Shown piece by piece: positions 5,824-62,801 of a stretch of 64,000 nt of DNA. Location of the stretch: NCBI GenBank assembly GCA_903813345.2, contig CAIIXF020000004.1, positions 600,513 to 664,512 of the forward strand, in the 5' to 3' direction. A model generated the notes under the pieces. That model saw only the letters and a list, made by a program, of their open reading frames with translations. It was not told where the DNA came from and searched no databases. The position numbers were made by a program, and so were the translations under genes. Position 1 is the stretch's first letter, and the number at the start of each line of letters is the position of its first letter. Source of the stretch: Owenia fusiformis (Eukaryota > Annelida > Polychaeta > Sabellida > Oweniidae).

Positions 5824-5918
5824 TTGCGAGAATTTATGAAAGTAAAGCTAGTGAAGTATTACAAGTACACTGTACATGTAGAGTAAAGCACTGTTTGATA
5901 TAGAAGGAATATGTGAAG

Positions 5919-11850: not shown

Positions 11851-12052
11851 AAGCAGAAGATTAAACAAATAATTTTGGGGGAGGGCGTCTACCCTCATTT
11901 TCACTTGAAATAACAACTCTTCATCTTGCTTGGGTGGATAAGATTTATTGCAATATAATATTGTTTCATCATATAAAGATTCACGATTTCTTCAGGTCAA
12001 CAAACAAAATGACACTTTTTTGTTTGTAAAGAGTATCTTGCACTATAACAGA
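11851..12052. other. Short spacer, nothing seen
   Basis: AT-rich DNA between the TPR tail array and duplicated block A. Confidence 0.4.
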
Positions 12053-26825: not shown

Positions 26826-27733
26826 AAAACAAACAAGTAAATACATTTCATAATTGTACAAAGTTTATTTGTATAGAATCATAAAAATTACAATACCTGT
26901 AAAATAATGTTATGATACAATGTATGAATATACTACAATTTATAATAATATGGTATGGGACATTACCGCTTTACGATAGTCCTGCACCAAGCCCCTGTTT
27001 TAACTCCCCTCATTCTCTCAAATGCAAGGATTGAGAAGGGGGAATTAGGGACTTAGTGCAAGACTTGTTAAAAAGTGTATTTACTATAAATGTAGCCTTT
27101 ACCTTGAATTACTTGATCTAGTGACAATGCACACATAATTTTGCTTTAATATGATCTAGTTCCACTTTAAGGGATTGTTTCCAAATATCAGCAGGTATGG
27201 AGTTATGTCATTCATTTTGTTTTATCATTACCCTCAGCTATCACATCCCCTAAAACTTAATTTTAAAAATTACAATCTAGATTGATATTTTTCAAAATAA
27301 AATTCTCATTTACCCCCTCCCCAAAACTAAAAACAATATACATCCAAAGCAGTTGATATTTGGAATCAATTCCTGCTAAATTATCAACCATGTTCAACAA
27401 TAATACAACCATGTTCAACAATAATACAACCATGTTCAACAATAATACACTCCCCTCCATAAGTTTGGCAACAGGAAGTTTTACTGGATAACATATCATG
27501 GCCTCAATATTTGAGCCTAAAAATTTTGTCTTGAATTTTGTTCCTTAGTTACGATAGTGTTGCCATTTAAGACAGATTTGATGTTTTTATATCGCCAAAC
27601 ATAAACAGGTTTTTAATGAGTCATCTAAAAGGAAATGTGTGGTTGTCAAACTTATGGAGAGGAGTGTTACATAACACGGAAGCAAAAAGAAGTTCCAAGC
27701 CGAGCTATAAATAGATTTGTACAAATACTAACA
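26826..27733. repeat. Duplicated block, copy B, near-identical part
   Basis: Matches 12057-12972 in the same orientation, with a handful of differences. Both boundaries are sharp: the copies share AAACAAACAAGTAAATAC at the left and ACAAATACTAACAGA at the right. Confidence 0.9.
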
Positions 27734-37000: not shown

Positions 37001-40000
37001 TTTACAAAGAAGTTCCATTTTAAGGCCCCAAATGAATGAAACTTAGGTTTATGTATTTAATACCATGGAAATACCTTGGCTGCTTCATATTATGTTTAAG
37101 ATTGCATCATATTTTAAATAAAGAACTTTATTGAATATCAATATGGCAACAAGCCCACATGGTCATATTTTATTTGAGAGGATCTTTCACATATTTTACC
37201 TCTATTGCCACGTAGTGATCATGTATGCTAACACTTGTATTCCTAATATTCTATTATTTTACCTCTATTGCCACGTAGTGATCATGTATGCTAACACTTG
37301 TATTCCTAATATTCTATTATTTTACCTCTATTGCCACGTAGTGATCATGTATGCTAACACTTGTATTCCTAATATTCTATTATTTTACCTCTATTGCCAC
37401 GTAGTGATCATGTATGCTAACACTTGTATTCCTAATATTCTATTATTTTACCTCTATTGCCACGTAGTGATCATGTATGCTAACACTGGTATTCCTAATA
37501 TTCTATTATTTTACCTCTATTGCCACGTAGTGATCATGTATGCTAACACTTGTATTCCTAATATTCTATTATTTTACCTCTATTGCCACGTAGTGATCAT
37601 GTATGCTAACACTTGTATTCCTAATATTCTATTATTTTACCTCTATTGCCACGTAGTGATCATGTATGCTAACACTTGTATTCCTAATATTCTATTATTT
37701 TACCTCTATTGCCACGTAGTGATCATGTATACTAACACTTGTATTCCTAATATTCTATTATTTTACCTCTATTGCCACGTAGTGATCATGTATGCTAACA
37801 CTGGTATTCCTAATATTCTATTATTTTACCTCTATTGCCACGTAGTGATCATGTATGCTAACACTTGTATTCCTAATATTCTATTATTTTACCTCTATTG
37901 CCACGTAGTGATCATGTATGCTAACACTTGTATTCCTAATATTCTATTATTTTACCTCTATTGCCACGTAGTGATCATGTATGCTAACACTTGTATTCCT
38001 AATATTCTATTATTTTACCTCTATTGCCACGTAATGATCATGTATGCTAACACTTGTATTCCTAATATTCTATTATTTTACCTCTATTGCCACGTAGTGA
38101 TCATGTATGCTAACACTTGTATTCCTAATATTCTATTATGTTACCTCTATTGCCACGTAGTGATCATGTATGCTAACACTTGTATTCCTAATATTCTATT
38201 ATTTTACCTCTATTGCCACGTAGTGATCATGTATGCTAACACTTGTATTCCTAATATTCTATTATTTTACCTCTATTGCCACGTAGTGATCATGTATGCT
38301 AACACTTGTATTCCTAATATTCTATTATTTTACCTCTATTGCCACATAGTGATCATGTATGCTAACACTTGTATTCCTAATATTCTATTATTTTACCTCT
38401 ATTGCCACGTAGTGATCATGTATGCTAACACTTGTATTCCTAATATTCTATTATTTTACCTCTATTGCCACGTAGTGATCATGTATGCTAACACTTGTAT
38501 TCCTGTGCCAACAAACATGCATCGTTGTATTCGCACGGTGCTGGATCTGTTTCTCACCACCAGAGAGCGCTGCAGTCTGATCATCTTGAAGATCGCTACT
38601 GTCAAGACCCTCAGAGCCTGCAATAAAGGAGGATATTACCCATGGTTCCCGTAAATGAAGAAGGTGGTTATTATAGCTCCTGATTGGTTTACAGCTCAAA
38701 ATTATGAAAATAGTTTTTAAAACTTGGCAGGCACATTTCCTGAAGCATATAGCAATAGCTTTGTAGATGTACTATGCACATATTACAATTATTTCTCCTC
38801 TCTATTATTATGGTAAGTACATATTTGTCACTCTTATTACAGTTAATATATTACTCACTAGCATTTGACTTTAAGCTCTGGAACTTGATCTTTTCATCCC
38901 CCTGCTCTTTAGCTTTAAGTATTGCCTCAACCAAATCTTCTATCCATTTGTCTTTCTCTTCCTGTGTGGATGCTGCCACCATTAAACAACGGTTGCCACC
39001 ATAAATAGCAAAACTATTGGCCACGTCCATCTTTGAGCCATTTTCTTCAACCTAAAGGTAGAATGATCTCCATGATTACAACAAGAATTCCATGATTTTT
39101 ACAATGAATTCCATCATCAACAATAAAATTCCATGATAATAACAATGAATTCCATGATAACAACAATGAATTCCATGATTATAACAATGGATTCCATCAT
39201 TACAACAATGAATCCCAAAATAACAGTAAATTCCAAAAATTATAACCATGAATTCCATACGCACAACAAGTATGGTGTATTTATTATAGATGGACAATTT
39301 GGAGATTACATAGGTGTCACACAATATATTAAGATAAAATGACGGTCTGAGAGACAATATAAATACAACTGTGCCAACTTATATAAAAAATAAATACTTA
39401 CAATCATCCCTCTTAGGGGTAATTGACCATGAACTTTGAACTGTAACGTGGGCGTGGCTGTACGACTTGTATACACAAGCATATCAGAGAATAGGAAAAA
39501 CATTCGCTGTTGGTAGCCTTTCCGTGATAGTTTTTGTAAGCATCCCTCGCGAATGAATTCTCTGATGGGCTGTACTAGGTTATCTATTCCTACCAAATCT
39601 CTTTGTAATTCTACTAGTTTCTGGAGATTTTCCTGAAATGAAATTTCATAATAGTGAGAAAGGGAACATAGGGCTTCCTAATGGACTAACATTGGAGAAG
39701 GTATTCAATTTAATCAGTTTTACTATGGTACAATCGATTTTGTCATAAACTATCATGAGTAAAAACACATGTAAAATAATCATCAGAGTGAAAATACATG
39801 TAAGATAATCATCATAATGAAAATACATGTAAAATAATCGTCATAATGAAAATACATGTAAAAATACATGTAAAATAATCATCATAGTAACGATACATGT
39901 AAAATAATCATTATGAAAATACATGTAAAAATACCCAGCATTTTGATTTTGTTTTGGGACTTCTTTTTGTGTTTTTCTTTTGTGGCAATCATTCATGCAA

Positions 40001-43000
40001 AGAGTACTTGTCAAGAAAATATTTTCCCAACATCATGTTAAGTTTATTAGATCATACCATTAAAACAACTATAACTACTCTATATAATTACATGCAATTT
40101 TTATATTATAAATGGAGAAAGTAATGTTCTTTGTCTTACCAGATGTCTGACTTGGTCCTCAAACCTGGATGTGATTTCTTTAACCTTCTGAAGAGCCTCA
40201 TAACAATCCCTATAGTCATTATGGTCATTATTGTAGTGACTAAGCAGGCCTGTAATATATAGTATATATAGATCATAACAATCCCTATAGTCATTATGGT
40301 CATTATTGTAGTGACTAAGCAGGCCTGTAATATATAGTATATATAGATCATAACAATCCCTATAGTCATTATGGTCATTATTGTAGTGACTAAGCAGGCC
40401 TGTAATATATAGTATATATAGATCATAACAATCCCTATAGTCATTATGGTCATTATTGTAGTGACTTAGCAGGCCTGTAATATATAGTATATATAGATCA
40501 TAACAATCCCTATAGTCATTATGGTCATTATTGTAGTGACTAAGCAGGCCTGTAATATATAGTATATATAGATCATAACAATCCCTATAGTCATTATTGT
40601 AGTGACTAAGCAGGCCTGTAATATATAGTATATATAGATCATAACAATCCCTATAGTCATTATGGTCATTATTGTAGTGACTAAGCAGGCCTGTAATATA
40701 TAGTATATATAGATCATAACAATCCCTATAGTCATTATGGTCATTATTGTAGTGACTAAGCAGGCCTGTAATATATAGTATATATAGATCAGAACAATCC
40801 CTATAGTCATTATGGTCATTATTGTAGTGACTAAGCAGGCCTGTAATATATAGTATATATAGATCATAACAATCCCTATAGTCATTATTGTAGTGACTAA
40901 GCAGGCCTGTAATATATAGTATATATAGATCATAACAATCCCTATAGTCATTATGGTCATTATTGTAGTGACTAAGCAGGCCTGTAATATATAGTATATA
41001 TAGATCATAACAATCCCTATAGTCATTATGGTCATTATTGTAGTGACTAAGCAGGCCTGTAATATATAGTATATACAGATCATAACAATCCCTATAGTCA
41101 TTATGGTCATTATTGTAGTGACTAAGCAGGCCTGTAATATATAGTATATATAGATCATAACAATCCCTATAGTCATTATGGTCATTATTGTAGTGACTAA
41201 GCAGGCCTGTAATATATAGTATATATAGATCATAACAATCCCTATAGTCATTATGGTCATTATTGTAGTGACTAAGCAGGCCTGTAATATATAGTATATA
41301 TAGATCATAACAATCCCTATAGTCATTATGGTCATTATTGTAGTGACTAAGCAGGCCTGTAATATATAGTATATACAGATCATAACAATCCCTATAGTCA
41401 TTATTGTAGTGACTAAGCAGGCCTGTAATATATAGTATATATAGATCATAACAATCCCTATAGTCATTATGGTCATTATTGTAGTGACTAAGCAGGCCTG
41501 TAATATATAGTATATATAGATCATAACAATCCCTATAGTCATTATGGTCATTATTGTAGTGACTAAGCAGGCCTGTAATATATAGTATATACAGATCATA
41601 ACAATCCCTATAGTCATTATGGTCATTATTGTAGTGACTAAGCAGGCCTGTAATATATAGTATATATAGATCATAACAATCCCTATAGTCATTATGGTCA
41701 TTATTGTAGTGACTAAGCAGGCCTGTAATATATAGTATATATAGATCATAACAATCCCTATAGTCATTATGGTCATTATTGTAGTGACTAAGCAGGCCTG
41801 TAATATATAGTATATACAGATCATAACAATCCCTATAGTCATTATGGTCATTATTGTAGTGACTAAGCAGGCCTGTAATATATAGTATATACAGATCATA
41901 ACAATCCCTATAGTCATTATGGTCATTATTGTAGTGACTAAGCAGGCCTGTAATATATAGTATATACAGATCATAACAATCCCTATAGTCATTATGGTCA
42001 TTATTGTAGTGACTAAGCAGGCCTGTAATATATAGTATATATAGATCATAACAATCCCTATAGTCATTATGGTCATTATTGTAGTGACTAAGCAGGCCTG
42101 TAATATATAGTATATACAGATCATAACAATCCCTATAGTCATTATGGTCATTATTGTAGTGACTAAGCAGGCCTGTAATATATAGTATATACAGATCATA
42201 ACAATCCCTATAGTCATTATGGTCATTATTGTAGTGACTAAGCAGGCCTGTAATATATAGTATATACAGATCATAACAATCCCTATAGTCATTATGGTCA
42301 TTATTGTAGTGACTAAGCAGGTCTGTAATATATAGTATATATAGATCATAACAATCCCTATAGTCATTATGGTCATTATTGTAGTGACTAAGCAGGCCTG
42401 TAATATATAGTATATATAGATCATAACAATCCCTATAGTCATTATGGTCATTATTGTAGTGACTAAGCAGGCCTGTAATATATAGTATATATAGATCATA
42501 ACAATCCCTATAGTCATTATGGTCATTATTGTAGTGACTAAGCAGGCCTGTAATATATAGTATATATAGATCATAACAATCCCTATAGTCATTATTATGG
42601 TCATTATTGTAGTGACTAAGCAGGCCTGTAATATATAGTATATACAGATCATAACAATCCCTATAGTCATTATGGTCATTATTGTAGTGACTAAGCAGGC
42701 CTGTAATATATAGTATATACAGATCATAACAATCCCTATAGTCATTATGGTCATTATTGTAGTGACTAAGCAGGCCTGTAATATATAGTATATACAGATC
42801 ATAACAATCCCTAGAGTCATTATGGTCATTATTGTAGTGACTAAGCAGGCCTGTAATATATAGTATATACAGATCATAACAATCCCTATAGTCATTATGG
42901 TCATTATTGTAGTGACTAAGCAGGCCTGTAATATATAGTATATACAGATCATAACAATCCCTATAGTCATTATGGTCATTATTGTAGTGACTAAGCAGGC

Positions 43001-46000
43001 CTGTAATATATAGTATATATAGATCATAACAATCCCTATAGTCATTATTGTAGTGACTAAGCAGGCCTGTAATATATAGTATATATAGATCATAACAATC
43101 CCTATAGTCATTATGGTCATTATTGTAGTGACTAAGCAGGCCTGTAATATATAGTATATACAGATCATAACAATCCCTATAGTCATTATGGTCATTATTG
43201 TAGTGACTAAGCAGGCCTGTAATATATAGTATATATAGATCATAACAATCCCTATAGTCATTATTGTAGTGACTAAGCAGGCCTGTAATATATAGTATAT
43301 ACAGATCATAACAATCCCTATAGTCATTATGGTCATTATTGTAGTGACTAAGCAGGCCTGTAATATATAGTATATAGATCATAACAATCCCTATAGTCAT
43401 TATGGTCATTATTGTAGTGACTAAGCAGGCCTGTAATATATAGTATATATAGATCATAACAATCCCTATAGTCATTATGGTCATTATTGTAGTGACTAAG
43501 CAGGTCTGTAATATATAGTATATATAGATCATAACAATCCCTATAGTCATTATGGTCATTATTGTAGTGACTAAGCAGGCCTGTAATATATAGTATATAT
43601 TCCATTCTATTGAGGTGAATACATGTTCATCTTTCCCCCGCAGCCCGAAGGGCAAGGGAAATATACCTGAGGGAAAGATGAACATGTATTCACCGAAAAT
43701 AGAATGGAATATTTGATTTATTATATCATTTGAATGTTCTACAAATTAAGTGTTTTTCTTTTAATCATTTAATACATAGATACAAAACATGTGCCCATCA
43801 GAATAACCACTCTAACTACAGCCACTCTTAGATGCAAGATATTGCCATCTTTCATCCTCAACTTTCTACCGTGGTATATACTCCGTGGTATATACATCGT
43901 GGTATATACAGTTGAAAACGAGGCTGCGTCTGGAGACTGTAGGAATCAATGAAATACACCTTAATATTTTTAATCATGTGATCGGTTCTTATCCAATGAG
44001 AAAGTGAGAAACATTTTAATGATATAATAAATAGATATATTTAGATATGATATAATGTAATATCACAGATAATAAAAAAACCATGGTCAATGTTGTACAG
44101 ATCATGGTCATTAATATAACAACTATGGTAACCATATATAACATCCCATTACTATGATTGTAGACTTACGTGTGAGTATAAGCTGATAGTGGAGCAGCCT
44201 CTGGGCAGGTTTTAGAAGGAATGTATTCAAAGGCAGGTAGCAAACCTTCTGACCCTCAAATTCTTTATAGATTGTTTCAAATTTGCGATTAGTTCTCTGA
44301 GCATTTTGGATCTCGTTCAAAATCTCCTCATGTTTTTCTATGTAGTTTATGTATAACTGAAACAGATATTTTCCATGTTATTTGTATGGCATATAAATCA
44401 AGGCATTAACATACATATGTCACCATCTACCACTAGTTAAAGATACCGATCGGCAACGTCATTTGTTCCAGAAACCAATAACTGAACAACAATTGCAGCG
44501 CCATCAACAAAAAATTGGAGACTTTTTACAAATTATCACCACTAAGGGTAGTAACATAATAAACATATATTTTTAAACATACAGGGCGGATATGCTTTTG
44601 TAATATTGCATTAAATAGCAGTTATAGGCTGACAAAATTGAATGTGAAGTCTATTTCTTTATTTATGTTTTGGTTTACATACTGGACATGAAATGCAGCA
44701 GAACTTCTGTAATCCAAAATCCTCTCAATGTCAACTGTTGTTCTAAGTCTCAATTTTATTATCACCTATTGACTCATATATACATAAGAGAAAAACCTTG
44801 AAATGTGAACACCTGCTAATCCAAACACTTTGAAATGAGAAGTGGCATTTGTTTTAGACTGAGGTTAAACTGTATAGAGTCCAATGAATCACTTTTGCCA
44901 CCTTAAGACCATTGAGTGTTTTACTGTATAGAGTCCAATGAATCACTTTTGCCACCTTAAGACAGTTGAGTGTTTTACTGTATAGAGTCCAATGAATCAC
45001 TTTTGCCACCTTAAGAGTGTTGAGCCACCTTAAGACCGTTGAGTGTCAAAATGTTAGGGAAATCCATTTACCTGTAGGACCTCCATATTATTCAGCATGA
45101 CATCACCAATCCGTCTGTATTCCCCATTCAGATGAGCATTGGACTTGCCCTCCCTGGAAGTAAGATAACATTGATAAACAGACATTCAGGCCAAGTTTTA
45201 ACATACAATTTAGTTTTTCTTCTACTTCAGTTACTTTAATTCAATAAGTGCATTAGAACTAAGTTATGGAACTCAAAGAGGATATGATGACGTCTGCTTT
45301 GAGTCTGATGCATTATGGGAGGAAATATCTGCCATAATCAGAGATTTTGGGAACATTATATGCAGTTTATTATGATATTAAAAACGCAGGGGATAAAAAG
45401 TCTGTCAGGCTCAAAACTATTTAGGGTTCTAAAATGCAAAAATTCCTATATATCATTTATAACACTGCCATTTGTTGGACTATCATATGAAATAAATGTC
45501 CATAAGATAAACTCACCAGAAGGCCAACCTCTGTTCAACCTCCCTAAGGAACTGACAGTGTTGTTCATAAAGAGGGTCAAGGTGAGAGAACATCAAGTGC
45601 ATCAGAGTCTCTGGCCACACATCTTCCTTGCTAGCTGCATTACGGAACCACTGAAACAGGAAACGTCTGCTATTATCCAGGTGCATTATGGGAGGAAACG
45701 TCTGCTACTAGCCAGATGCATTATGGGAGGAAATGTCTGCTTTAAGTCAGAATCATTATGGGAGTAATATCAATAGCTTATAAATTCAAAACATGAGAGA
45801 TATAATGAAAGAAATCAATATATTTTATTAAGTCATGCAAAAAACATGGCCATATTATATATAAACTTCTTCAAACAATTTCCTTTAATTAGATTGATGC
45901 AGACCAAGAAATAAACGTTTCGACTAAAAAATCTCTAGCTGGCTGGCTAAGATTGTATAACCTTGACAAAACAGTTTTTCTTTGGCTATGAGAGGTCTTA

Positions 46001-49000
46001 GAATAGAACATAATATAACTGTCAAAATCATGTAGACAGTACATGTAGTTGCAAACTAAAACATTGATAGACTATGTATTAAACGTTGGTTCAAGAATGT
46101 TAGTAAAACTACAAGAGATAGATTGTTGTAGTCCAGAGGGGTGAAGTATGTTTAATGGAAGAGCTATAACATGAGTACTGTTATATATTGTAATAAAGTA
46201 TATTGAATATGATATACAAAATGGGGAAGGCACATTGCCTTTAGGTCCTTTTAACCCAGCCAATGTGAGTCAAGATCTGAGATATAATCAAGTGCTAAAT
46301 TAACAGACAGTCTAACACAAAGACACAAGAAATGCTTCAAATTAAGCTATCCTTCCCTCATTCATATTGGAGCATTCCCCATGTGACCAATGTACATGTT
46401 TCCTCTGGGCTGTGCCTCAGACCACAGACAGTATCCGTACCCAATCCTACCATGTAAACCTACATGGTATCATGGATAGTGAGAGGCTTCTCCATATGAT
46501 ATACAGGGTGCCCATAATATCTCTTTACACTTTACATCAGCTTTGTATTGTAATTGTAGAGACGTTACAGACACCCTGTACGTCTACCAAGAGTCAACAG
46601 AACACAGTATTCTAGGGTCTCTCATGTGGATGGTACCTGGACATTCCAGTTTTCTGTATGAAAAAATCCTGCATGGAACAATTGTTACTGACAAGAACTG
46701 AATTTGTGCTAGGATTTTCATAAGGTATGATTCAATCTTAAAAACCTGACCTAGATACCACAGACTGCATTTGGGTAGAGATTAAATATAGAAATACTAA
46801 AATTTTATATGGGATTTACTACAAATCTCCAAATTTAGATAAAAATCAAGAAAAGATATTTTTTGATACCGCTGAAAACACTTTTAAGCAGGCCTCTAAA
46901 TGCCAGTGTGATTACCTACTGATAAATGGGGATTTTAACTCTAAGAACAAAAAATGGTGGTCTAAGGGGCAAACTGATTCAAATGGGGAAAGACTTGATG
47001 AAATTTTGATGGAATGTAACCTTGTTCAACTTATCCATGAAGCCACAAGAATAACTAATCAATCACGATCATGTATTGACCTAGCAATAACTAATTCACC
47101 TGATCTGATAAGGGAATCTAAAGTGACTCATCCAATAAGCTGTACTGACCATTCAACATTGGAACTTACATTTCCAATGAAAATTTTAGGAACTTCTAAA
47201 CATCAAAAACGTATTTGGAAGTATGACCAATCTAACATAGAGCGAATAAACAGCCAAATATTTGACATAAACATTGAACAAAGATATAATGAATGCAATG
47301 ATATTGACCAATTAACAGAAACATTTACTAGAGATGTATTTAACATCTTTGAACAAAACATTCCAAATAAAATAACTACCTTTAATTCAAAAGATCAACC
47401 TTGGATAAATAACGATATTAAACACCTGATTAGGAAAAAATCACAATTTTATGAACGGTTCAAAAATTCAAACAAGCAGATTGACAATGATAACTATAAA
47501 CTTTTAGCTCAGCAAGTTAAAGATAAAATCACTGAAGCAAAAGAAAATTACCATTCCAAAATATGTGACAACCTTGAGGCAGAAAATAATGGAAACAACA
47601 AATACTGGGCAATCATTCAAAAACTTTTAAATAGAAAATACTATACTGGATTTCCCTCTTTGATCTTTGGGAATCTACTTGCAACTACAAGCCTTGAAAA
47701 GGCAAATTTGTTTCTATCTTTTTTTACATCAAAATATCACACTGACCACAATTTTGACCATTCACTCCCACAATTTAATAAAAGAACCCATATCAAAATG
47801 GATAACTTAAGCACATCATCAGAAGACCTTGACCTTATTATTAAATCACTAAAAAAGAATAAAGCAGCTGGCTTAGATAATGTAACCAATGATATGATCA
47901 AATTAGCTTCCCCATCACTATCAGTTAAGCTTGCTGACCTCTTTAATCTTATCTTCAAGACTGGAGAATTTCCAACTATATGGAAGGAAGGCAACACCAT
48001 CCCCATCTTCAAAAAAACCGACAGATCAGCTATTGAAAATTATAGACCTATAACTTTACTTCAAGGATTTTCAAAAATCCTGGAGACAGTTGTCCACTCT
48101 CAAATTACCGAGCATATTTTTAGAAACAAACTACTCTTTGCAAAACAATCCGGATTCTTAGCTGGTCATAATACTGAACTCCAAATTACGGCTATCATTG
48201 ACTTTATTTTGAATGAATTCGAAAAAGGGAAATGTGTAAATGCCTGTTTCCTTGATATCAGTTCTGCGTTTGATTCTGTTCCGCACTCTCTACTTCTCCA
48301 TAAACTAGAATCTTACGGAATTTCTGGTATGACCCTAACACTTCTTAAATCCTACCTCTCAGAAAGAAAAATCTGTGTAACAGTTGATGATGTAAAATCG
48401 AACTTTTCAAATATCGGATACATTAACACAGGAGTACCTCAGGGATCTGTCCTTGGGCCACTCCTATTTCTCATCTACATAAACGATCTTCCTGACAACC
48501 TCAGATCAGAATGTTATATTTATGCGGACGACACGTCAGCCTATGCCTCTTTCAATATCGATGATAACCAAACCTTTGACCTGCAACATGATCTGAACAT
48601 AATTGAACAGTGGTCTATTAAATGGCATTTACAATTTAAAGCATCAAAAAGTGCTCACATGATATTCCAACCCAAGAATATTAATAATTTTGACATTATG
48701 CCCTTATTCTTTGAAGGTGTTGAAATCCCATACAAAACTTCCCATAAACACCTGGGATTCACTTTTGACCACCGATTAAAATTTGATGTACATATAAGTG
48801 AACTTGCCAGCAAGGTGCAAAAACAACTCAATCCACTGAAATCACTATCTTATAAATTAAAATCTAGGCACCTTGAACTTATATATAACTCCTTTATTTT
48901 ACCACACCTGGACTATTGTAGTTCAATCTATGGCTCAAGCACAGCTCAAAATTTGATAAAACTAGACAGATTGCACTATAGAGCAGCACTCAGCTGCTCT

Positions 49001-52000
49001 GGGGCATTACATGGATCAAGTACTCTTAAAACTCTTGATTGCCTGAAGTGGAAACCACTTGAGTCCAGAAGGAGAGACAAAAATCTTATTATTATGTTTA
49101 AAATTTGTAGAAATATGGCACCCGATTATATTGTTGAATGTTTTGACCATTATAAATCTGAGCAAAGAAGGGTTCTCAGAACCCATAGACCTTTCCAAAT
49201 ACCGGTTAAATCAAGTGCACGACTAATTAATGGACCAGTGCTAAGATTGATCTCTGAATGGAATAAGTTATCACTAGAAGAGAGGTCTACTCCCACCATC
49301 TCTTTGTTCAAAAGTAAAATCAAAAAGAAATCTTCAAAGTTTAATGACTTCAATACAACTTCTAAACTCAATCTTTCTCGAAAACAAGAAATTACCTTAA
49401 ACAGAATTAGATGCGGACTCTATTTTGAATCTCAAAAGTTTGCTCATAATTTTCCCAACACAACTAATCTATGTGTCTGTGGTAAGAGTGCAACCCCTAA
49501 ACACCTGATTCTGCAATGTAAGCGCCATTCAACACAAAGGAAAAACCTTGAAGAAACCCTTGAGCAGCAAAACCTTGAGACCCATCTCAGTGGACAAGAC
49601 AAAATTGAATTTTTAATTTTCAAAAATTCATTCTCAATTCAACAAGATTCTCAACTAAAAGGAAGGTTCGTTGATTTTATTCTTAGCTTAACCTAACCTA
49701 TTTTATTTTGATTTACTTTTCACCATTAGGTGTAGGCTACTAGTTAGCACATTTATATGTATAACTCACTCAATTAATTAAATTAATTTAATTTATATTC
49801 ATTTCAAAACGCTAGCCTGTAATGCACATTGCGCTAGGCAGCGACCTGTGTAACTCTTTTGACTGCAATATGATTGAAATAAATGTATAATGAACCGAAA
49901 ATCTTAAAAAGTCCCGGAATTTTTTTTTTTACAAATTTTGTGAAAATTTTGCAAATTCTGTAGAAAAACTGCAAATTCTGAAAAGTCTGCAAATCCTGCA
50001 TATTTTTGAGAAACTGGCAATTGTGTAGCGCGATCAAACAGAACTCTGGAAAGTTTCACATCCCACATTGAGAACACACAACTAAAAACTGTTAGTAAAA
50101 TTATTCCATCATCATCATCTAACCAACTAAAACAAAACAAGTTCTAATGGAGGAGGGTAAGACCAACTAAGGGCCTAAATAGGAGGGCCTAAATGATTAT
50201 GGCCTAAATAGGAGGGCCTAAACAGTGTTTTTCCTAAGGCAAAATACATCACAGGACCACCGGACTGACAGGTTCTACATTTTGGCCAGTCCATACCAAA
50301 ACTCATCGGACATTCGGACCTGTAACTTCAGTTTAATCACCGGTCCGTGTGAAAACTAACCAGTCCAAGACTAAGAGAGAAATGAAAGTAACAAATTTTA
50401 GAGCGAATTTCTTGCGAATTCAGTTTCAAATCAGCCCATAATCGCATGTTTTTATACATGTTAAAGGTGACCTACTTCTCAGCGTACACTTAAACAGGCA
50501 ACATGCCTATTTTTGAAGAAAAAATGATGAAATATTATTTTAGACATGTTACTCTCACACTCAATCAAATATGATTAAAACTTTAATTTGGGATAATACT
50601 GAAGTGAAAAAAAAATTACTCGCATAGAAAACAGCATTTGAAGTTCAGATATCCAAAAAAGTGAATTACCACTTTTCACAAAGTGGATCTTTTAGATAAC
50701 TCTTGGATTAAAAGATGGCGTATGTTTGAAAATTCTATCAAAATCAAAGGATAATGTCATGCAAAAAACTTCGCCATCTTTCATTAGCATTGCTAAAAAC
50801 TTGACATATATAAATTGATAGATTGAAAATATTTTTTGATAATCTAGTGACAACTCTGATGTGGTCTGTTTGAGGTGTTTTTGGTGTCAAATGAAAGATC
50901 AGGTACTTATCAATCCATTGGAAATACTATGAAGATCAAAAGTAAAACTTCAATTTCCCAATAATATGCATTTATTCCCTTTAACTGCAAATTATATTGA
51001 ATTCGGACGAAATTTCCGAAAAAATCATCAAAAAATTAACTTTAAAGTTTACATTATTAATGCGCATGCGCATAATTCTATCGTTTTGAAAATGCTTTTG
51101 ATTGGTCGATCAACTAAAATTCACGTGCCATCACTCGTGGCTCACCATGAGGTCTGCATGCTTACGAATACGGTTTCACGATAGCCCTGATAAACAGGCG
51201 TAATAATCATGGGAATCTCGAAAACGATCCAATATATGACAAAATTAACCAACCAATCAGCGATCAGATTTTGCAATGATACCGAAAGATAAACCAAGGG
51301 CGAACGTAATACCTGGATCGTTCGCAAATTGGCGTTCGGTTTTTTACCGCACCCGATTTGAATTAGCCAATAAAACCTCACGCGGTGAAAAAATCGAGAT
51401 GATTACCCAAGAGTCTAATCAACCAATCGGAGAACAGTTTCTGTTTGATGCTGATAAAAAAATGATGATACGTAAACATCCTCCCGTGCAGCCAATTTCA
51501 CTAATATGATTTTTAGAATTTCAAGGTTTTACCGTAGATATAATGAGATTTCAGACAGCGATCGGACCAAATTTGGGAGTAAAGAAATGATTTTAGATGA
51601 AGAACCGGACACAGGCAGAATTGAGGACTGGCTACTTGATAAAATTCATTAGTCCGAAGCCCACATCACCGGAGATGTCCTATGGTCCGACGCTTAGGAA
51701 AAACACTGGGCCTAAATGTAAGGACCTAATGTAACGGCTTACCGTATCTTTAAACCACTGGAAGTAAAGCAAAACAGTAAAAGAATTTTGAAAAATTCAC
51801 AAAAGATGATAATGAAATATAAGAAACTAATGAAAACAAGCATAAAAATGAAGTGGTACCTAATTCTCATTTTTGGAATATTTTCGGAAAATATGAATAT
51901 CTTATTGAAACACTTATTTGTGGACTGGATACAACTTCATATTGGCAAAATGATGAGAGGATAGAAAGTTTGGCTCTTCAGTTTGGCTTGGTTTAAACCT

Positions 52001-58000: not shown

Positions 58001-61000
58001 AAGTTATTTAAATTTCAACATAATTCTTAAGTTACCCAGGCAATCCAAAGCTAACTTGTAAGCCACATAGAAAGAATATAGAACAGATAGGCTTATACAC
58101 AAACTGGGTCACGAGCAATCAGGTATAAAATATTCCCACTGGACCCACCTTAAGGCTGTGTAAAGTTGAGAGGATACAACAAAATGCTAATGTGCCCGAA
58201 GACTGCCAATAGATGGCACAACCCACAGTTGGCTGGATTTTATGTATTGACTGAACATACATGTATAATTTAAAATAATCAAAAATACTCAGAGCAACTA
58301 ACACAAATCTTCCTTCATGTAGAAAAGTCAAAATAAAGGTTTGATTGATGAAGTGTATTTGTGTTGAAATAAAGCAATATTTACATGTTAACATAACATA
58401 ACATATTAACAGGAAGTGCATATCAATTCACTTTTGACCTGCCATCTATATGAGTCAACAAGCTCATTAAGTAACATAACCATAGACAGGATTAGCGTAG
58501 AGAATTGAAATGTTCGCATTATAACTTAACATTACAACATTGCCTTTAGGTAAGTTTACTGATGAAACATGAAATGAAGAAATAAACCCAAAATTGATGT
58601 TTTATTTATGTTTTAGTAATACACAAAAAGCATATTGCAACACAAAAGATAAAAATCCAAGAAAAGCAGTGCAATGATATGAAAGATCTAAAGTGCCACA
58701 ACAAAGCCCAACACAGGTTATATGTCACAAAGGATATATTGTCACAAAGGATATATTGTCACAAAGGTGATTGTGTCACAAAGGTGTATGTATCACAAAG
58801 GTGATTGTGTCACAAAGGTGTATGTGTCACAAAGGTTACTATACCTCTCTGGCTGCACTCTGTTAAGAACAAACATGCAATACATTACAATATTTAAACA
58901 AAGGATAATATAGTTTTTCCTTTTGGGTGTTATTATTTTCTGCAGGGCGTAATGAATTGAAATCAATAGTAATGCAGACAGCCATTTTTAAAGTTGCAAA
59001 TAAAAATTATTTTTGAAAGTTCTTAAAGTGCATTAAAGTGCTAAAATGCAAAATATGTTAAGGTGATGATTGACAAAGGTGATTATTACAAACACAATAT
59101 GATACAATACAATATGTCTATATTGGAAGTTGTTAAGCACAATTTGGTGATTTGCAAAGGAGGGGGTGACCATAATTGATTAACTCACCCTGTAGTAAAA
59201 GTTGGCCGTTCTCGCACTCCAGCTTCCTCCCTCATAGCTTCAGCAACTTCACTAATATTTTGATAATCGGGAGCAGGAGACCTAAATCTGGTGGCAAAAA
59301 CAAACAATATACAAAATATAAGAAAACCAAATCAAAGTGAAGTTGATGAAATAAAATGTATGTTATAGAGAACATGCAAAATATGATGTACATATGAACT
59401 GAGTTTAAAATAATGAAATAAAAGAAGCATTCGTAAACTTAAGAATTTCTAAGTCTCGTTCTCTTGCAATGATGTCACAATGTCCATATCAACAACAATT
59501 CATTCATGAATCATAAATTCGTGGACGATTTTGGTAATGCAACCGCCGTTCCAGGCATGTAATACACACTTTAAATGACATCGAAAATAAAGAAATTCAG
59601 GCATTACTGTACATTCACATTTTAGAGAAAAAGTCTGAAAGGCATGACAATATTTTCACATACCTGGGGTGGCGCGTCCTTTCTTCATCTTCCTCTAGAA
59701 TTTCTGGAATATTCCCAACTTCAGACGATCGTGATAATTCATGCTCCTCAATTTCCGGGTGATGAAGTTGCGAAAATACGGGAGCAGACATTTTTCTATC
59801 CACCATTTGTTTGTTTGTGGATGGTGGTGAATCGTAAGTATTATCCACCGCAGCTTTTGTCCGTTGAGACCGAGGTGATTTTTCTGATAAACTACCTGCA
59901 GAAGCTAGAACAATTTGAAAATCATTAGTCATGAAGTCCTTTAAACCTGTAAACTAAATCACTAAACGTGTAAACTAAATCACTAAACCTGTAAACTAAA
60001 TCACTAAACCTGTAAACTAAATCACTGTGCTCATTCTTCATTTTCACATAATTTTGCTCACAATGAAAAGAATGCGAATAAACCATTCATGAGTTCAACT
60101 TTTCTGATAAACTTTAATGTTTCTGAAGTTTCTGATAAACTATCTAAAATCTTTTCCTTTTTTGAAGTAAAAATGAAATAGTTTGTTCATTACTTATTAC
60201 ACCAACTAAAAACTTCAAGAAATTTTGGTTAAAGGAACCTATCCAGTCGAGTCCCTGGTAAAAATGGTGCAGAAAGTTATTGAAATAAACCATATTTTGA
60301 CAGCTAATCATTGCAAACTGGTGAAGCGTGTCAAGACTGAAATGGAACATCCACAAGACATATTAGGGTTCATTTGATAAATCAATGGAAATTTTTGAGG
60401 AACAACCTGCCCATCCCAAGGACTGAAATGAATAAATGTTTTGCAAAATTCCACATAAGATGTCAATGTTTCAATGTGAACATATGACCATTATGATGTC
60501 AATGTTTTAATTTGCACAAATGGTGTCAATGTTTTGATGTCAACAAATGATGTCATGTTTCAATGAACACATATAAACATTGAATTGTCATTGTTTAATG
60601 TCATATATTGATGTCAGTGTTAAACATCTATATATGGTTATTCGAATGTCAATGTATAAATTTTGAACAGAAAATCTTTATTAAATTTTTGTGTGGAATA
60701 TATCCTCCCTTAGAGGTGACATCAACCAATATTTCTGAATGATTTATTTCTAAAATCAAATCCTGATGTCAACAATTGATCAACATGATGTCAATATTTC
60801 AATTAGTGAAATGATGTCAGGGAAGTAATGAAGACACTGATATGAGAAACTAGTGATAAATGGGATCATAAATCAAAACCCAAATTATAACATTTCGAAA
60901 GTGAGCTCTGTACTAAACTGACAATGTCAATCATGTATGGCTAAATATTCACTCAAGATCAGCTAGTAATAAAACAACTTCACATTAAATGGACAAACAA

Positions 61001-62801
61001 AACTTTTATCAACAAAAATAACAAATTATAATAATTATCCAACAGAAATTTTCATATATAAGACATAGTACCATGGGTACTTGGCTCACAAGAGGTTGTT
61101 TGAATCTATATATGCTACTTATTTAGGACACACAGACTGGCAGTTAGATATACTGTCCAGACATACAGACAGACTGGGTGATTGTGTTAGCCCACTCTAA
61201 GTGAGCTAAAACGCATTATAACAGAAGTACCTTATATACCTTTGCACAAAGCAAATGTATTAAAATAGAGCAAAGCATTACCTTATTCCAAGCAGTCCTC
61301 CTGTCCACATGTCTATAAGCCCAGAGTTTACCTCATACCCATAGTTTGCAATCCAAGCATTCCATTGTTAATGTGTTATATTATAAACTAATAGCAGATA
61401 AATGATGCGGAACAGTCAACTGCATGCTTTTCATAATCTGCTATTAATTGGGAGGCCAAGGGAAAATATGTGTCAAGGTGAAGGTAATTTTTCTTAATCG
61501 TTAAAAATCAAATGGACAATGAATTTTAATGAAGATGGTGTCTAATGTTTTGATTAAAATACTTTCGCTTCAAATGATATTTTCACCTGACCCAATAAAT
61601 GGTGTTAATTCATTCACTTCATATGATATTTTCACCTGGCCCAATCAATGGTGTTAATTCATTCACTTCATATGATATTTTCACCTGGCCCAATCAATGG
61701 TGTTAATTCATTCACTTCATATGATATTTTCACTTGGCCCAATCAATGGTGTAAATTCATTCACTTCATATGATATTTTCACCTGGCCCAATCAATGGTG
61801 TTAATTCATTCACTTCATATGATATTTTCACCTGGCCCAATCAATGGTGTTAATTCATTCACTTCATATGATATTTTCACCTGGCCCAATCAATGGTCTT
61901 AATTCATTCACTTCATATGATATTTTCACCTGGCCCAATCAATGGTCTTAATTCATTCACTTCAAATGATATTTTCACCTGGCCCAATCAATGGTGTTAA
62001 TTCATTCACTTCATATGATATTTTCACCTGGCCCAATCAATGGTGTTAATTCATTCACTTCATATGATATTTTCACCTGGCCCAATCAATGGTCTTAATT
62101 CATTCACTTCATATGATATTTTCACCTGGCCCAATCAATGGTCTTAATTCATTCACTTCATATGATATTTTCACCTGGCCCAATCAATGGTGTTAATTCA
62201 TTCACTTCATATGATATTTTCACCTGGCCCAATCAATGGTGTTAATTCATTCACTTCATATGATATTTTCACCTGGCCCAATCAATGGTGTTAATTCATT
62301 CACTTCATATGATATTTTCACCTGGCCCAATCAATGGTGTTAATTCATTCACTTCATATGATATTTTCACCTGGCCCAATCAATGGTGTTAATTCATTCA
62401 CTTATTATGATATTTTCACCTGGCCCAATCAATGGTGTTAATTCATTCATTTCATATGATATTTTCACCTGGCCCAATCAATGGTGTAAATTCATTCACT
62501 TCATATGATATTTTCACCTGGCCCAATCAATGGTGTTAATTTATTCACTTCATATGATATTTTTACCTGGCCCAATCAATGGTGTTAATTCATTCACTTC
62601 ATATGATATTTTCACCTGGCCCAATCAATGGTGTTAATTCATTCACTTCATATGATATTTTCACCTGGCCCAATCAATGGTGTTAATTCATTCACTTCAT
62701 ATGATATTTTCACCTGGCCTAATCAATGGTGTTAATTCATTCACTTCATATGATATTTTCACCTGGCCCAATCAATGGTGTTAATTCATTCTTTGAAATC
62801 A
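30984..62801 (-). CDS. FARP: FARP1/2 orthologue (RhoGEF), C-terminal part, at least 16 exons
   Basis: Sixteen exons join in phase into about 730 aa plus alternative ends: linker (62763 to 54180), DH domain (53200 to about 39600), PH1 (39632 to 38859), linker and PH2 (38617 to the terminal exons). Signatures matching FARP1/2 include KVCYLPLNTFLLKPAQRL, REFIREGCLQKLSRKG, QQRMFFLFSDMLVYTS, HRANTTMHVCWHRNTSVS, LWVVFTNFCLFFYK and HVYFFRAESEYTFERW. FARP proteins are FERM-DH-PH-PH guanine nucleotide exchange factors for Rac/Rho-type GTPases, working at membranes in neurons and in adhesion signalling. The N-terminal FERM exons should lie beyond 64 kb. Three phase-compatible terminal exons (a, b, c) imply alternative C-termini. 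Exons are listed separately. Confidence 0.9.
31048..31931. other. FARP intron/3' region with degenerate repeats
   Basis: 31140-31400 has degenerate units of about 55 bp built on ATCATGTGACTG and AACCAATCA. Nothing else is recognised. Confidence 0.5.
31932..32034 (-). CDS. FARP: FARP alternative terminal exon b
   Basis: Acceptor TTTTGTAG, then WVETLSSATQSAKRTRLF, ERLESSQPPNMIYPQ and a stop. Same phase and same Trp-x-Glu...Ser-Ala-Thr start as exons a and c, with a longer basic tail. The similarity to the human FARP1 end (WMEVIRSATSSASR) supports it as PH2 sequence. Confidence 0.8.
32035..33821. other. FARP intron, no other feature seen
   Basis: AT-rich; two CCATGGTAACA motifs near 33120-33170. 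No coding sequence. Confidence 0.4.
33822..33906 (-). CDS. FARP: FARP alternative terminal exon a
   Basis: Acceptor TTGGCTATAG, then WLEVINSATINSSDSQLRG, ATGVNTKH and a stop. Its start is closest to the vertebrate WMEVIRSAT. It is the first terminal exon met downstream of 36200-36351. The upstream intron holds repeated ACCAATCAGA motifs (33905-34090). Confidence 0.8.
33907..36199. other. FARP intron
   Basis: Contains the CCAAT-like repeats next to exon a and the inverted-repeat element at 35368-35763. No exon seen. Confidence 0.5.
35368..35763. mobile_element. Inverted-repeat element in a FARP intron
   Basis: AAGGACGATTCTCGGTTTGG is inverted at the right end (CCAAACCGAGAATCGTCCTT). Inside, a block of about 110 bp is present twice in direct orientation (35417-35535, 35604-35720). 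No coding sequence. Confidence 0.7.
36200..36351 (-). CDS. FARP: FARP exon: PH2 core
   Basis: DDFPLASLPLLGYSVTTPAE, then NIHKDYVFKLQFKNHVYFF and RAESEYTFER. Acceptor CTTTTCAAG, donor GTGGGT, 152 nt. It ends with two bases of an Arg codon, completed by any of the three terminal exons. Confidence 0.95.
36716..36823 (-). CDS. FARP: FARP exon: start of PH2
   Basis: NQLSGYLLRKFKNSNGWQKL, then WVVFTNFCLFFYKTFQ. Acceptor TTTTTCAG, donor GTAAGT, 108 nt in phase 0 at both ends. Strong match to FARP1/2. Confidence 0.95.
37194..38459 (-). repeat. Splice-donor minisatellite: 20 extra copies of a FARP exon end
   Basis: Exactly 20 units of 63 bp with no indels and very few substitutions. On the minus strand each unit is the last 44 nt of exon 38460-38617 (AATACAAGTGTTAGCATAC to GGCAATAGAG) joined to the first 19 nt of the intron (GTAAAATAATAG). 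Every unit therefore carries a copy of the splice donor. In the exon frame GTAAAATAA stops immediately, so use of a later donor would truncate the protein. The long plus-strand open frame through the array is a by-product. Confidence 0.95.
38460..38617 (-). CDS. FARP: FARP exon: PH1-PH2 linker, source of the donor array
   Basis: SEGLDSSDLQDDQTAALSGG, then HRANTTMHVCWHRNTSVS and IHDHYVAIE. Acceptor TTTATTGCAG, 158 nt. The motif HRANTTMHVCWHRNTSVS is conserved in FARP1/2. The donor GTAAAA is the first of 21 identical ones. Confidence 0.95.
38859..39051 (-). CDS. FARP: FARP exon: PH1 second half
   Basis: VEENGSKMDVANSFAIYGGN, then RCLMVAASTQEEKDKWIEDL, typical of PH strands 5-7 and the C-terminal helix (Trp). 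Acceptor TACCTTTAG, donor GTGAGT, 193 nt. Confidence 0.9.
39076..39255. repeat. Minisatellite, about 20-bp unit
   Basis: Degenerate copies of AACAATGAATTCCATGAT in the PH1 intron. Confidence 0.7.
39402..39632 (-). CDS. FARP: FARP exon: end of DH and start of PH1
   Basis: ENLQKLVELQRDLVGIDNL, then REFIREGCLQKLSRKGYQQ, RMFFLFSDMLVYTSRT and FKVHGQLPLRGMI. Acceptor CATTTCAG, donor GTAAGT, 231 nt, phase 0. Very close to human FARP1/2. Confidence 0.97.
39770..39935. repeat. Minisatellite, about 29-bp unit
   Basis: About five copies of AAATACATGTAAAATAATCA with ATCATAATG spacing. Confidence 0.7.
40140..40249 (-). CDS. FARP: FARP exon: DH helix, source of the acceptor array
   Basis: After a split Arg: LLSHYNNDHNDYRDCYEALQ, then KVKEITSRFEDQVRHL. 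Human FARP has LCAHYSPGHRDYADCHEAL at this place. Donor GTAAGA, 110 nt. The first 51 nt and the preceding intron end form the 75-bp unit repeated upstream. Confidence 0.95.
40250..43596 (-). repeat. Splice-acceptor minisatellite: 45 extra copies of a FARP exon start
   Basis: 45 units, mostly 75 bp, precede exon 40140-40249 in transcription order. Each joins 24 nt of intron end (CTATATATACTATATATTACAG) to the first 51 nt of the exon (GCCTGCTTAGTCACTACAAT on to GGGATTGTTATG). Five units lack 9 bp, one has 3 extra, and one near 43370 lacks 2 bp. Excluding the three distal units beyond that 2-bp loss, all 42 nearer units are open in the exon frame (GLLSHYNNDHNDYRDCYD, LYILYIT). A second frame is also open. 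Confidence 0.97.
43597..43712. repeat. Near-perfect hairpin next to the acceptor array
   Basis: Arms of 41 bp (ATATTCCATTCTATT, GTGAATACATGTTCATC) face each other across a 33-bp loop. It lies within 20 bp of the distal end of the array. It is probably a tiny transposon. Confidence 0.85.
43713..44169. other. FARP intron, no other feature seen
   Basis: A triple CGTGGTATATACA motif near 43870-43910; otherwise nothing recognised. Confidence 0.5.
44170..44356 (-). CDS. FARP: FARP exon: DH core
   Basis: LYINYIEKHEEILNEIQNA, then KFETIYKEFEGQKVCYLPL and NTFLLKPAQRLLHYQLILT. KPAQRL is the conserved DH signature in the GTPase-contact region. Acceptor CTGTTTCAG, donor GTAAGT, 187 nt. Confidence 0.97.
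44865..45050. repeat. Three tandem copies of about 52 bp
   Basis: TGTATAGAGTCCAATGAATC plus ACTTTTGCCACCTTAAGA, three times, ending 20 bp from exon 45072-45153. It does not overlap the exon. Confidence 0.8.
45072..45153 (-). CDS. FARP: FARP exon: DH
   Basis: EGKSNAHLNGEYRRIGDVML, then NNMEVLQ. Human: GDHQRIGDILLRNM. Acceptor TTACTTCCAG, donor GTAAAT, 82 nt, phases fit both neighbours. Confidence 0.93.
45290..45775. repeat. GCATTATGGGAGGAAA repeats on both sides of an exon
   Basis: TGCATTATGGGAGGAAA plus TCTGC occurs at about 45308 and at least twice at 45680-45740, with a degenerate third nearby. The exon 45517-45650 lies between them. A related GGAAACGTCTGC touches the acceptor. Confidence 0.6.
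45517..45650 (-). CDS. FARP: FARP exon: DH
   Basis: WFRNAASKEDVWPETLMHLM, then FSHLDPLYEQHCQFLREVEQ and RLAFW. Matches human VWFRS...SNIDPVYEFH...EVEQRLALW. Acceptor TCCTGTTTCAG, donor GTGAGT, 134 nt. Confidence 0.95.
45776..46502. other. FARP intron, no other feature seen
   Basis: Unordered AT-rich DNA. No exon or transposon recognised. Confidence 0.4.
46503..46580. mobile_element. MITE-like element, copy 2
   Basis: ACAGGGTG at the left and CACCCTGT at the right, with TCTTTACACTTTACAT inside, related to 28902-28981. Confidence 0.55.
46745..49696 (+). CDS. LINE ORF2: partial endonuclease plus reverse transcriptase
   Basis: An uninterrupted frame of about 983 codons runs from the truncation to TAA. 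The endonuclease remnant has [22 protein letters not shown] and CTDHSTLEL. The reverse transcriptase has [56 protein letters not shown] and the catalytic YADDT, followed by a [10 protein letters not shown] and HLGF thumb region. A Cys-rich end ([16 protein letters not shown]) is typical of Jockey/CR1-type elements. There are no stops or frameshifts, so the insertion is young, but without the start of the endonuclease it cannot be fully active. The first internal ATG is at 47006. Confidence 0.92.
   Translation, partial: [983 protein letters not shown]
46745..49899 (+). mobile_element. 5'-truncated non-LTR retrotransposon with 11-bp target duplication
   Basis: AATCTTAAAAA flanks the element on both sides (46734-46744, 49900-49910). 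It starts inside the endonuclease domain, so it is 5'-truncated, and ends after a tail with GAAATAAATGTATAATGAA. It is antisense to FARP in the 7.5-kb DH intron. Jockey/CR1-like by its coding sequence. Confidence 0.92.
50223..51709. mobile_element. Non-autonomous hAT-like element with perfect 8-bp duplication
   Basis: Ends CAGTGTTTTTCCTAAG and the inverse CTTAGGAAAAACACTG. GGCCTAAA is repeated exactly on both sides (50215-50222, 51710-51717). An 8-bp duplication and CAGTG ends fit hAT. The 1487 bp contain only short frames and no recognisable transposase. It is inserted in a short GGCCTAAAT repeat within a FARP intron. Confidence 0.9.
52196..52605. repeat. Minisatellite, 28-bp unit
   Basis: About 14 copies of AAATCACTCAGAATTACA plus GGGTGTTCAT. 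Confidence 0.9.
52850..53130. repeat. Minisatellite, about 18-bp unit
   Basis: About 15 copies of CATTGTGACATTCCCAC with variants CTCAACAGT and CCTCCA, 70 bp downstream of the donor of exon 53200-53289. Confidence 0.9.
53200..53289 (-). CDS. FARP: FARP exon: start of the DH domain
   Basis: KYPADRAYYIAKELLMTERT, then YKKDLEVLTV. Human: PTDRAYFIAKE...TERTYLKDLEVIT. This is the first DH helix (CR1). Acceptor TGTTTTAG, donor GTAAGT, 90 nt, phase 0. Confidence 0.96.
53290..54179. other. FARP intron with a possible SINE
   Basis: On the minus strand GGTTGGCCTAGTGGTTAAGG (about 54115-54135) is an A-box-like tRNA-derived head. No clear B box was found, so the SINE call is weak. Nothing else seen. 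Confidence 0.35.
54180..54332 (-). CDS. FARP: FARP exon: linker before DH
   Basis: ITKETVVTTVTRDENERSLP, then KSRSTTSDKLSAASMGSPVH. Ser/Thr-rich, unstructured. Acceptor ATCTCTTCAG, donor GTAAAA, 153 nt, phase 0. Assigned by position, splice sites and phase rather than strong similarity. Confidence 0.8.
54333..56281. other. FARP intron, no other feature seen
   Basis: AT-rich; 55880-55940 has three copies of CTTTTATATTGTACTATGG type. No exon seen. Confidence 0.4.
56282..56374 (-). CDS. FARP: FARP exon: acidic-proline linker
   Basis: DDDEPEPLPPPPPEPLQEV, then NSVSPSVARATK. A proline-rich stretch that could bind SH3 or WW domains. Acceptor ATTTTGCAG, donor GTAATT, 93 nt, phase 0. Confidence 0.8.
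56385..56490. repeat. ATATGCGCAT repeats, first array
   Basis: Units of about 27-29 bp with TATATGCGCAT and an A/T-rich GATGA spacer, beginning 10 bp inside the intron. The same family lies at 57215-57365 in the neighbouring intron. Confidence 0.75.
56968..57124 (-). CDS. FARP: FARP exon: Ser/Thr-rich linker
   Basis: SEPIISSPKENGHVSPLPSY, then SDALEIEQQRSQVQSV and a TTVTTTTTTSS run. Acceptor GTTATTTCTAG, donor GTTTGT, 157 nt. Phases match both neighbours. Confidence 0.8.
57215..57365. repeat. ATATGCGCAT repeats, second array
   Basis: About six units of TATATGCGCATATTGATGAT type, decaying toward the end. Confidence 0.75.
57366..59188. other. FARP intron with a short repeat
   Basis: 58719-58835 is a 17-18-bp array of GTCACAAAGGATATATT/GTGTATGT. 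No exon is recognised. Confidence 0.5.
59189..59281 (-). CDS. FARP: FARP exon: linker
   Basis: SPAPDYQNISEVAEAMREEA, then GVRERPTFTTG. Acceptor CAGATTTAG, donor GTGAGT, 93 nt. Phase fits both neighbours. Confidence 0.8.
59664..59904 (-). CDS. FARP: FARP exon: linker
   Basis: SAGSLSEKSPRSQRTKAAVD, then DSPPSTNKQMVDRKMSAPVF and EIEEHELSRSSEVGNIPEIL. Low complexity, rich in Ser and Glu, probably a flexible phosphorylatable region between the FERM part and DH. Acceptor TTGTTCTAG, donor GTATGT, 241 nt. Confidence 0.8.
59938..60025. repeat. Minisatellite, 22-bp unit
   Basis: Four copies of AAACCTGTAAACTAAATCAC, 35 bp upstream of the exon acceptor. Confidence 0.85.
60455..60830. repeat. Degenerate GATGTCAATGTTT repeats
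   Basis: Irregularly spaced copies of GATGTCAATGTTT with TTCAATGTGAACA-type spacers; an old array. Confidence 0.6.
60831..61566. other. FARP intron, no feature seen
   Basis: No exon, transposon or ordered repeat recognised. Confidence 0.4.
61567..62762 (-). repeat. Splice-donor minisatellite: 24 extra copies of a putative FARP microexon end
   Basis: 24 units of 49 bp, very uniform. On the minus strand each joins AATTAACACCATTGATTGGG plus CCAG (end of the putative exon 62763-62801) to GTGAAAATATCATATGAAG (start of the intron). As in the array at 37194, the true copy is the one next to the exon and each further unit repeats the donor. The exon frame stops at TGA just after the donor. Confidence 0.9.
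62763..62801 (-). CDS. FARP: Putative FARP microexon
   Basis: 39 nt: acceptor ACCTTTGCAG, then ISKNELTPLIGP with one base left over, donor GTGAAA. The phase (one base) fits exon 59664-59904, which starts with two bases, giving an Ala codon. There is no strong family similarity in this linker. The fact that an array of the same design as the one at 37194 ends here supports it. Confidence 0.5.

Follow-up and report, generated by a model that had tools for sequence, protein, structure and literature searches.

Tandem repeats that span exon-intron junctions are best known from amphioxus genes. Mirages, tandem duplications of intron-exon borders, were described in the globin genes BflGb6 and BflGb9 in a paper whose available text also cites Adh3 and other amphioxus loci as cases (PMC3087553), and TnC and PGBD5 are further mirage genes (PMC3902484). 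According to the available portions of these papers, the border repeats lie on the donor or the acceptor side, many copies of the splice signal are present, and one authentic border appears in the transcript. The arrays analyzed here share these features. They differ in having a spiralian host and up to 46 copies, and in being known from genome sequence alone, whereas RNA and allele comparisons exist for amphioxus, where Adh3 is reported to show array instability. The available text of PMC3087553 and PMC3902484 gives neither a frequency nor an enrichment of mirages, whereas both are estimated here from a sample of genes.

Other systems resemble these arrays in part, as far as the available text of each source goes. 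Among variable internal tandem repeats of human segmentally duplicated genes, minisatellites can sit at an exon-intron boundary (PMC2812944), but there the genes are young paralogs with changed exons and novel introns, whereas here conserved genes keep unchanged exons. In a potato RdRp gene (PMC4974935) and in fission yeast (PMC3629103), tandem duplications likewise include splice signals, but they create a new intron, whereas here the repeats fill a neighbouring one. Earthworm metallothionein genes carry large minisatellite arrays in intron 1 (PMC12783039), which are alike in being large minisatellites in an annelid intron; units spanning a border are not described in the accessible part of that report. 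Within the open-licence literature, in a search worded in part for amphioxus or lancelet, none of the titles and abstracts listed dealt with spiralian mirages, and in the same literature no paper names both Owenia and minisatellite. What is new here is the taxon, the frequency and the measured enrichment, while the arrays themselves are of the amphioxus kind in a phylum far from it. Mirages, so far described in a few amphioxus genes, thereby become a frequent, countable feature of a distant animal group.

Results

Three arrays at exon borders of a FARP gene

The window is a stretch of 64,000 nucleotides from Owenia fusiformis (assembly GCA_903813345.2, contig CAIIXF020000004.1, positions 600,513 to 664,512), and the FARP gene that harbours all three arrays lies on its minus strand (Table 1). 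Joined translations of the FARP exons aligned over 448 residues both with FARP2 (4gzu_A, E 9.9e-187) and with FARP1 (4h6y_A, E 6.6e-162). The same strand carries FERM_C matches upstream of array 3, at distances of 25 and 37 kb, so that the gene name FARP fits, and the upstream FERM_C exons and the DH-PH exons presumably form one FARP transcript. A minus-strand frame that stays open for about 1548 codons and has no Pfam match (L002, 1240-5886) has the FERM_C matches on one side of its stop and the DH-PH exons of FARP on the other; it is perhaps an alternative last exon. Between FARP exons, an unbroken ORF of 984 codons with RVT_1 and Exo_endo_phos_2 domains (46742-49696, plus strand) is a retroelement of the non-LTR type.

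Table 1. Exons and tandem arrays. Positions are those of the window unless another interval is named.
Feature	Position	Strand	Side	Unit and copies	Remarks
Array 1	37192..38504	-	donor	63 bp x 20.8, 99% match	TRF; unit is exon end plus donor
Array 2	40198..43600	-	acceptor	75 bp x 46.0, 96% match	TRF; unit is intron end, acceptor and exon start
Array 3	61564..62791	-	donor	49 bp x 25.1, 97% match	TRF; unit is small-exon end plus donor
FARP exon	38460..38617	-			ends in HVCWHRNTSVSIHDHYVAIE; array 1's exon-proximal copy fills its last 45 bp
FARP exon	40140..40249	-			(R)LLSHYNNDHNDYRDCYEALQKVKEITSRFEDQVRHL; starts with array 2's exon-proximal copy
Probable 39-bp exon, ISKNELTPLIGP	62763..62801	-			edge of array 3; splice sites and phase, without homology support
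83-bp array	10521..10941	+		83 bp	begins in last four codons and stop of TPR gene, continues into 3' flank
L005			donor	125 bp x 9	by eye
L007			donor	34 bp x 4	by eye; 4 nt of exon only
L011			donor	83 bp x 7.2	by eye
L013			donor	41 bp x 4	by eye
L020			donor	129 bp x 7	by eye
L036			donor	91 bp x 3.1	by eye
L038			donor	57 bp x 16.9	by eye
L011			acceptor	91 bp x 11.8; 260 bp x 4.2	by eye
L025			acceptor	42 bp x 3.5	by eye
L032			acceptor	29 bp x 6.5	by eye
L038			acceptor	154 bp x 2; 76 bp x 4.2	by eye
L044			acceptor	53 bp x 2.2	by eye
L059 (CCT)			acceptor	86 bp x 1.9
L060 (CCT)			acceptor	83 bp x 4.4	cut by stretch end
L045, kinesin exon	G000:C2:23264500-23270500	-	acceptor	159 bp x 17.9	18 equal kinesin matches

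A sequence-only reading of the window had placed the arrays almost where TRF finds them, leaving out part of the exon-side copy, and had described each as part exon and part intron with the splice site included. The latter description was borne out, for arrays 1 and 2 by the alignment with FARP2 and for array 3 by splice sites and phase only. The FARP2 alignment runs without a gap through AIE/NQLSG at the border of array 1 and ILT/RLLSHY at that of array 2, so that the conserved protein results only from the exon-proximal site, and by the same alignment the FARP exons flanking the arrays are unchanged; this homology is consistent with undisturbed regular splicing. At array 3, an acceptor, a donor and a phase fitting the next exon were read for the 39-bp exon.

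With the slash marking the splice site, the unit of array 1 contains the donor GCAATAGAG/GTAAAATA (coding strand GAG/GTAAAATA), that of array 2 the acceptor TATATATTACAG/GCCTGCTTAGTCAC (coding strand TTACAG/GCCTGC) and that of array 3 the donor ATTGGGCCAG/GTGAAAATA (coding strand CCAG/GTGAAA). Many copies carry the splice signal: GAGGTA occurs at 21 sites in array 1, spaced 63 bp apart; TTACAG at 46 sites in array 2, with spacings of 75 (38), 66 (5), 73 (1) and 78 bp (1); and array 3 has 25 sites 49 bp apart, 24 of them reading CAGGT and one CAAGT. In each array a single intact border copy stands at the edge and the remaining copies lie in the intron, an architecture that equals that of the amphioxus mirages; the likeness, to which the earlier reading had pointed, is apt by the available text of both amphioxus papers (PMC3087553, PMC3902484). 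That reading had further described expansion as always on the intron side, with one intact copy left at the exon. The intact edge copy is indeed present, but it is no evidence on mechanism, since any tandem duplication across a border leaves one by topology.

Variant copies are scattered among the others along all three arrays, as in minisatellites with turnover by unequal exchange. By eye, array 3 has a diverged copy at its intron-side edge; array 1 shows no such edge. The units of the three arrays had no match in the assembly outside their own arrays (for the array 2 stretch, among the 40 of 892 candidates scored), and for this reason each array probably arose locally. No allelic contig was found for the stretches A1, A2, A3, L038 and L011, with 40 of 892, 40 of 1481 and 40 of 3224 candidates scored for three of them. 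A dispersed element at 43583-44042, with dozens of matches on other contigs among 40 of 892 candidates scored, adjoins the intron-side edge of array 2.

Three such arrays in one gene had been suspected to exceed chance, and the count agrees: 3 of 14 FARP arrays contain a junction where 0.67 are expected (P 0.026), and a count restricted to arrays of 2.8 or more copies that match at 90% or better gives three of six against 0.35 (P 0.003). FARP was chosen for its arrays, and the independent test is therefore a sample of other genes.

Junction arrays in other genes

We sampled 18 myosin-head and 24 kinesin stretches (16 and 24 genes by position), fetched from match positions. Exons were located from Pfam matches together with tblastn searches that used exons of paralogues. 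Once arrays had been collapsed, the map covered 215 kb and held 263 exons with 492 junctions. Larger myosin, kinesin and CCT genes were left out, a choice made from coordinates before any sequence was seen. Arrays were TRF calls with a period of at least 20, a match of at least 80% and at least 1.8 copies, and arrays of 2.8 copies or more that match at 90% or above were termed young. The null expectation for each array was the probability that a segment of one unit's length, set down anywhere in the same stretch at random, takes in a mapped junction, meaning 5 nt or 3 nt of both exon and intron; both rules are given because the real donor of L007 leaves 4 nt of exon in its array. Two exons and one donor of the map were set by hand after the arrays had been seen, and a tblastn piece inside the L036 array was taken out by hand.

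Our results showed that 13 of 43 arrays in the 42 stretches contained a junction under the 5-nt rule, against 5.69 expected (P 0.0012), and 15 of 43 under the 3-nt rule, against 6.04 (P 0.00016), the latter count taking in one further array beyond those inspected by eye. The excess lay in young arrays, 9 of 19 with a junction against 2.45 expected by the 5-nt rule (P 7e-5) and 10 of 19 against 2.62 by the 3-nt rule (P 1.6e-5). The other arrays showed no clear excess (4 of 24 against 3.24, and 5 of 24 against 3.42, respectively). When L011 and L038, with three junction arrays each, were removed, young arrays still gave 4 of 13 against 1.07 (5 nt, P 0.013) and 5 of 13 against 1.18 (3 nt, P 0.0027). 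Without the two hand-set exons the counts were 12 of 42 against 5.40 and, for young arrays, 9 of 19 against 2.36; this map still includes L007 by way of a donor that was afterwards corrected. The null also places units inside exon interiors, where selection would remove duplications; leaving these out would raise the expectation modestly, by estimate rather than computation.

Two earlier exon maps were replaced. Real exons were absent from a Pfam-only map (8 of 40 arrays, expectation 3.25, P 0.008), and an intermediate tblastn map (10 of 42 against 5.12, P 0.018) was superseded.

By eye we confirmed 14 junction arrays in the 263 myosin and kinesin exons (Table 1). Two further arrays, L012 2311-2430 and L038 6243-6401, look junction-derived or start at a donor and were excluded from the counts by eye, and L045 stands outside all counts because it was fetched for its array. 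As a forward check we took four CCT chaperonin genes under the same TRF settings, having noted before the sequences were seen that about two junction arrays were expected. They held two arrays, both over acceptors of conserved exons, an outcome that random placement would give with a probability of about 0.03. The CCT genes add 27 exons, bringing the total to 16 junction arrays in 290 mapped exons, about 1 in 20. The check proposed with the sequence-only reading, a comparison of junction overlap with shuffled positions, gave a positive result in the myosin and kinesin sample and in this small check. Within one genome, in the myosin, kinesin and CCT families plus FARP and on an inferred exon map, junction arrays are a common class and not an oddity of FARP, and young multi-copy arrays hold a junction at about four times the random rate.

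An array of the same architecture at a stop codon

The window also contains an 83-bp array that starts at the end of a TPR gene (ORF 7223-10537; Table 1). It has the same architecture, with no splice site involved. A second array with a related unit (83-85 bp) lies at 11519-11853 on the plus strand, with about 580 bp of unrelated sequence in between. A plus-strand ORF at 5904-6293, upstream of the TPR gene, ends in GGVEVNPGPRPGN, which we take to resemble a 2A-type ribosome-skipping motif. An identical 21-bp unit, 3.1 copies at 100%, occurs at 12617-12681 and at 27385-27449, 15 kb apart.

Discussion

Origin of the arrays

We consider it probable that these arrays are mirage-type minisatellites, in which a duplicated junction was multiplied and homogenised and is hidden by exon-proximal splicing. 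A short local tandem duplication (units are 29-260 bp in the survey) would first cover a splice junction, the duplicated unit would then be multiplied and homogenised, and the spliceosome would pick the exon-proximal copy of the site. With that site in use, the other copies go out with the intron, splice sites included, and the protein is unchanged. Duplications wholly within coding exons would be weeded out, so that junction-spanning ones survive where they arise. Exon-proximal splicing of the arrays, like expansion by slippage or unequal exchange and an origin of the first duplication in end joining, is what we infer from their structure. Brief stretches of shared or filler sequence at the ends are expected from end joining or template slippage, and the small sample at hand includes about 3 nt of filler in array 2 and GAA common to both ends of array 3, both by eye. 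Edges were clean in only some arrays, where the excess over whole units was -10 in array 1, -3 in L005, 0 in L007, +2 in L013 and +15 in the 76-bp array of L038.

The arrays set 2 to 46 near-identical splice sites side by side in conserved genes and form a natural test of the spliceosome's choice of the exon-proximal site. Tolerance through such splicing explains how the arrays can exist but not the roughly fourfold rate among young ones, which points to some bias to exons or borders on top of tolerance. A duplication bias to exons and borders, followed by loss inside coding sequence, would cover both the enrichment and the stop-codon array. If the enrichment holds genome-wide, it would point to mutation that is biased towards the borders of exons and steadily supplies introns with added length and with new splice sites.

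That mutation itself is aimed at exons or junctions through transcription, splicing or exon chromatin, with coding-interior duplications lost and border ones kept, is a possibility we treat as somewhat doubtful. The enrichment of young arrays speaks for it, it would cover the stop-codon array too, and three junction arrays each in L011 and L038 (P 0.04) are what a gene-specific rate would produce, though they make only a weak cluster. The arrays fall on donors (6 or 8, by rule) about as often as on acceptors (7), and a single splice signal is therefore a poor candidate for the trigger. Duplication started by splice sites as such, which the sequence-only reading had put forward beside tolerance, goes beyond these data: the stop-codon array has the same architecture, and the excess is clear only in young multi-copy arrays. 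The broader proposal, that mutation directed to exon borders keeps starting tandem duplications at junctions genome-wide and fills introns with very many decoy sites, is tentative and strikes us as rather doubtful; if true, splice-junction minisatellites would be a leading class of young tandem repeats in genes.

Tolerance could instead act alone, with duplications starting at random everywhere and junction arrays merely surviving, so that their number in FARP and in the sample is chance. The survival argument is sufficient by itself for this, older or low-copy arrays show no clear excess, and an array like that at the stop codon needs no splice site. Tolerance alone, however, permits junction arrays to be as frequent as intronic ones and not more so per length, whereas 9-10 of 19 young arrays contain a junction against about 2.5 expected, and both CCT arrays lie over junctions. 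We regard this explanation as unlikely.

We think it very improbable that the extra copies are functional and that alternative site use yields protein variants. Array 2 is open throughout in the frame of its exon, at 25 residues per unit, and would allow a long isoform, but its insert would interrupt the DH domain that aligns gaplessly to FARP2, and in array 1 a stop codon follows directly behind the donor. Unit lengths divisible by three number 6 of 20 (5 of 17 in an earlier set), the neutral share, which fits copies that are untranslated; for want of such a bias we discarded a reading of the arrays as coding repeats. Misassembly as the source of the multiplied copies is hardly credible, for although copy numbers come from assembled sequence, distinct units stand at some twenty junctions and the arrays contain scattered variant copies and unit-length variants.

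Additional observations in the assembly

The O. fusiformis genome was reported at 505.8 Mb in 12 chromosome-scale scaffolds, with the Hox cluster on chromosome 1 and with genome and RNA-seq data public, according to the available text of PMC9977687. The assembly used here comprises 498 Mb, of which twelve contigs of 32-62 Mb make up 477 Mb, and its Hox cluster lies on contig C1. We take the homeodomains of this cluster to be of the Lox2, Lox4, Antp, Lox5, Scr, Dfd, Hox3 and lab types, together with two adjacent ones of the Post2 type, a set that marks the genome as spiralian and not amphioxus. Mitochondrial COX1 had no match in the assembly, and the loci retrieved up to the Hox survey had a GC content of 34.7%. 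The Post2-type pair closes the cluster, its members separated by about 350 bp (L046, G000:C1:17970400-17971000), and is possibly another tandem exon duplication. In a myosin heavy chain gene on the minus strand (G000:C9:37986009-37994334), twelve successive matches cover one stretch of the myosin head (about positions 18-84) and are probably alternative exons.
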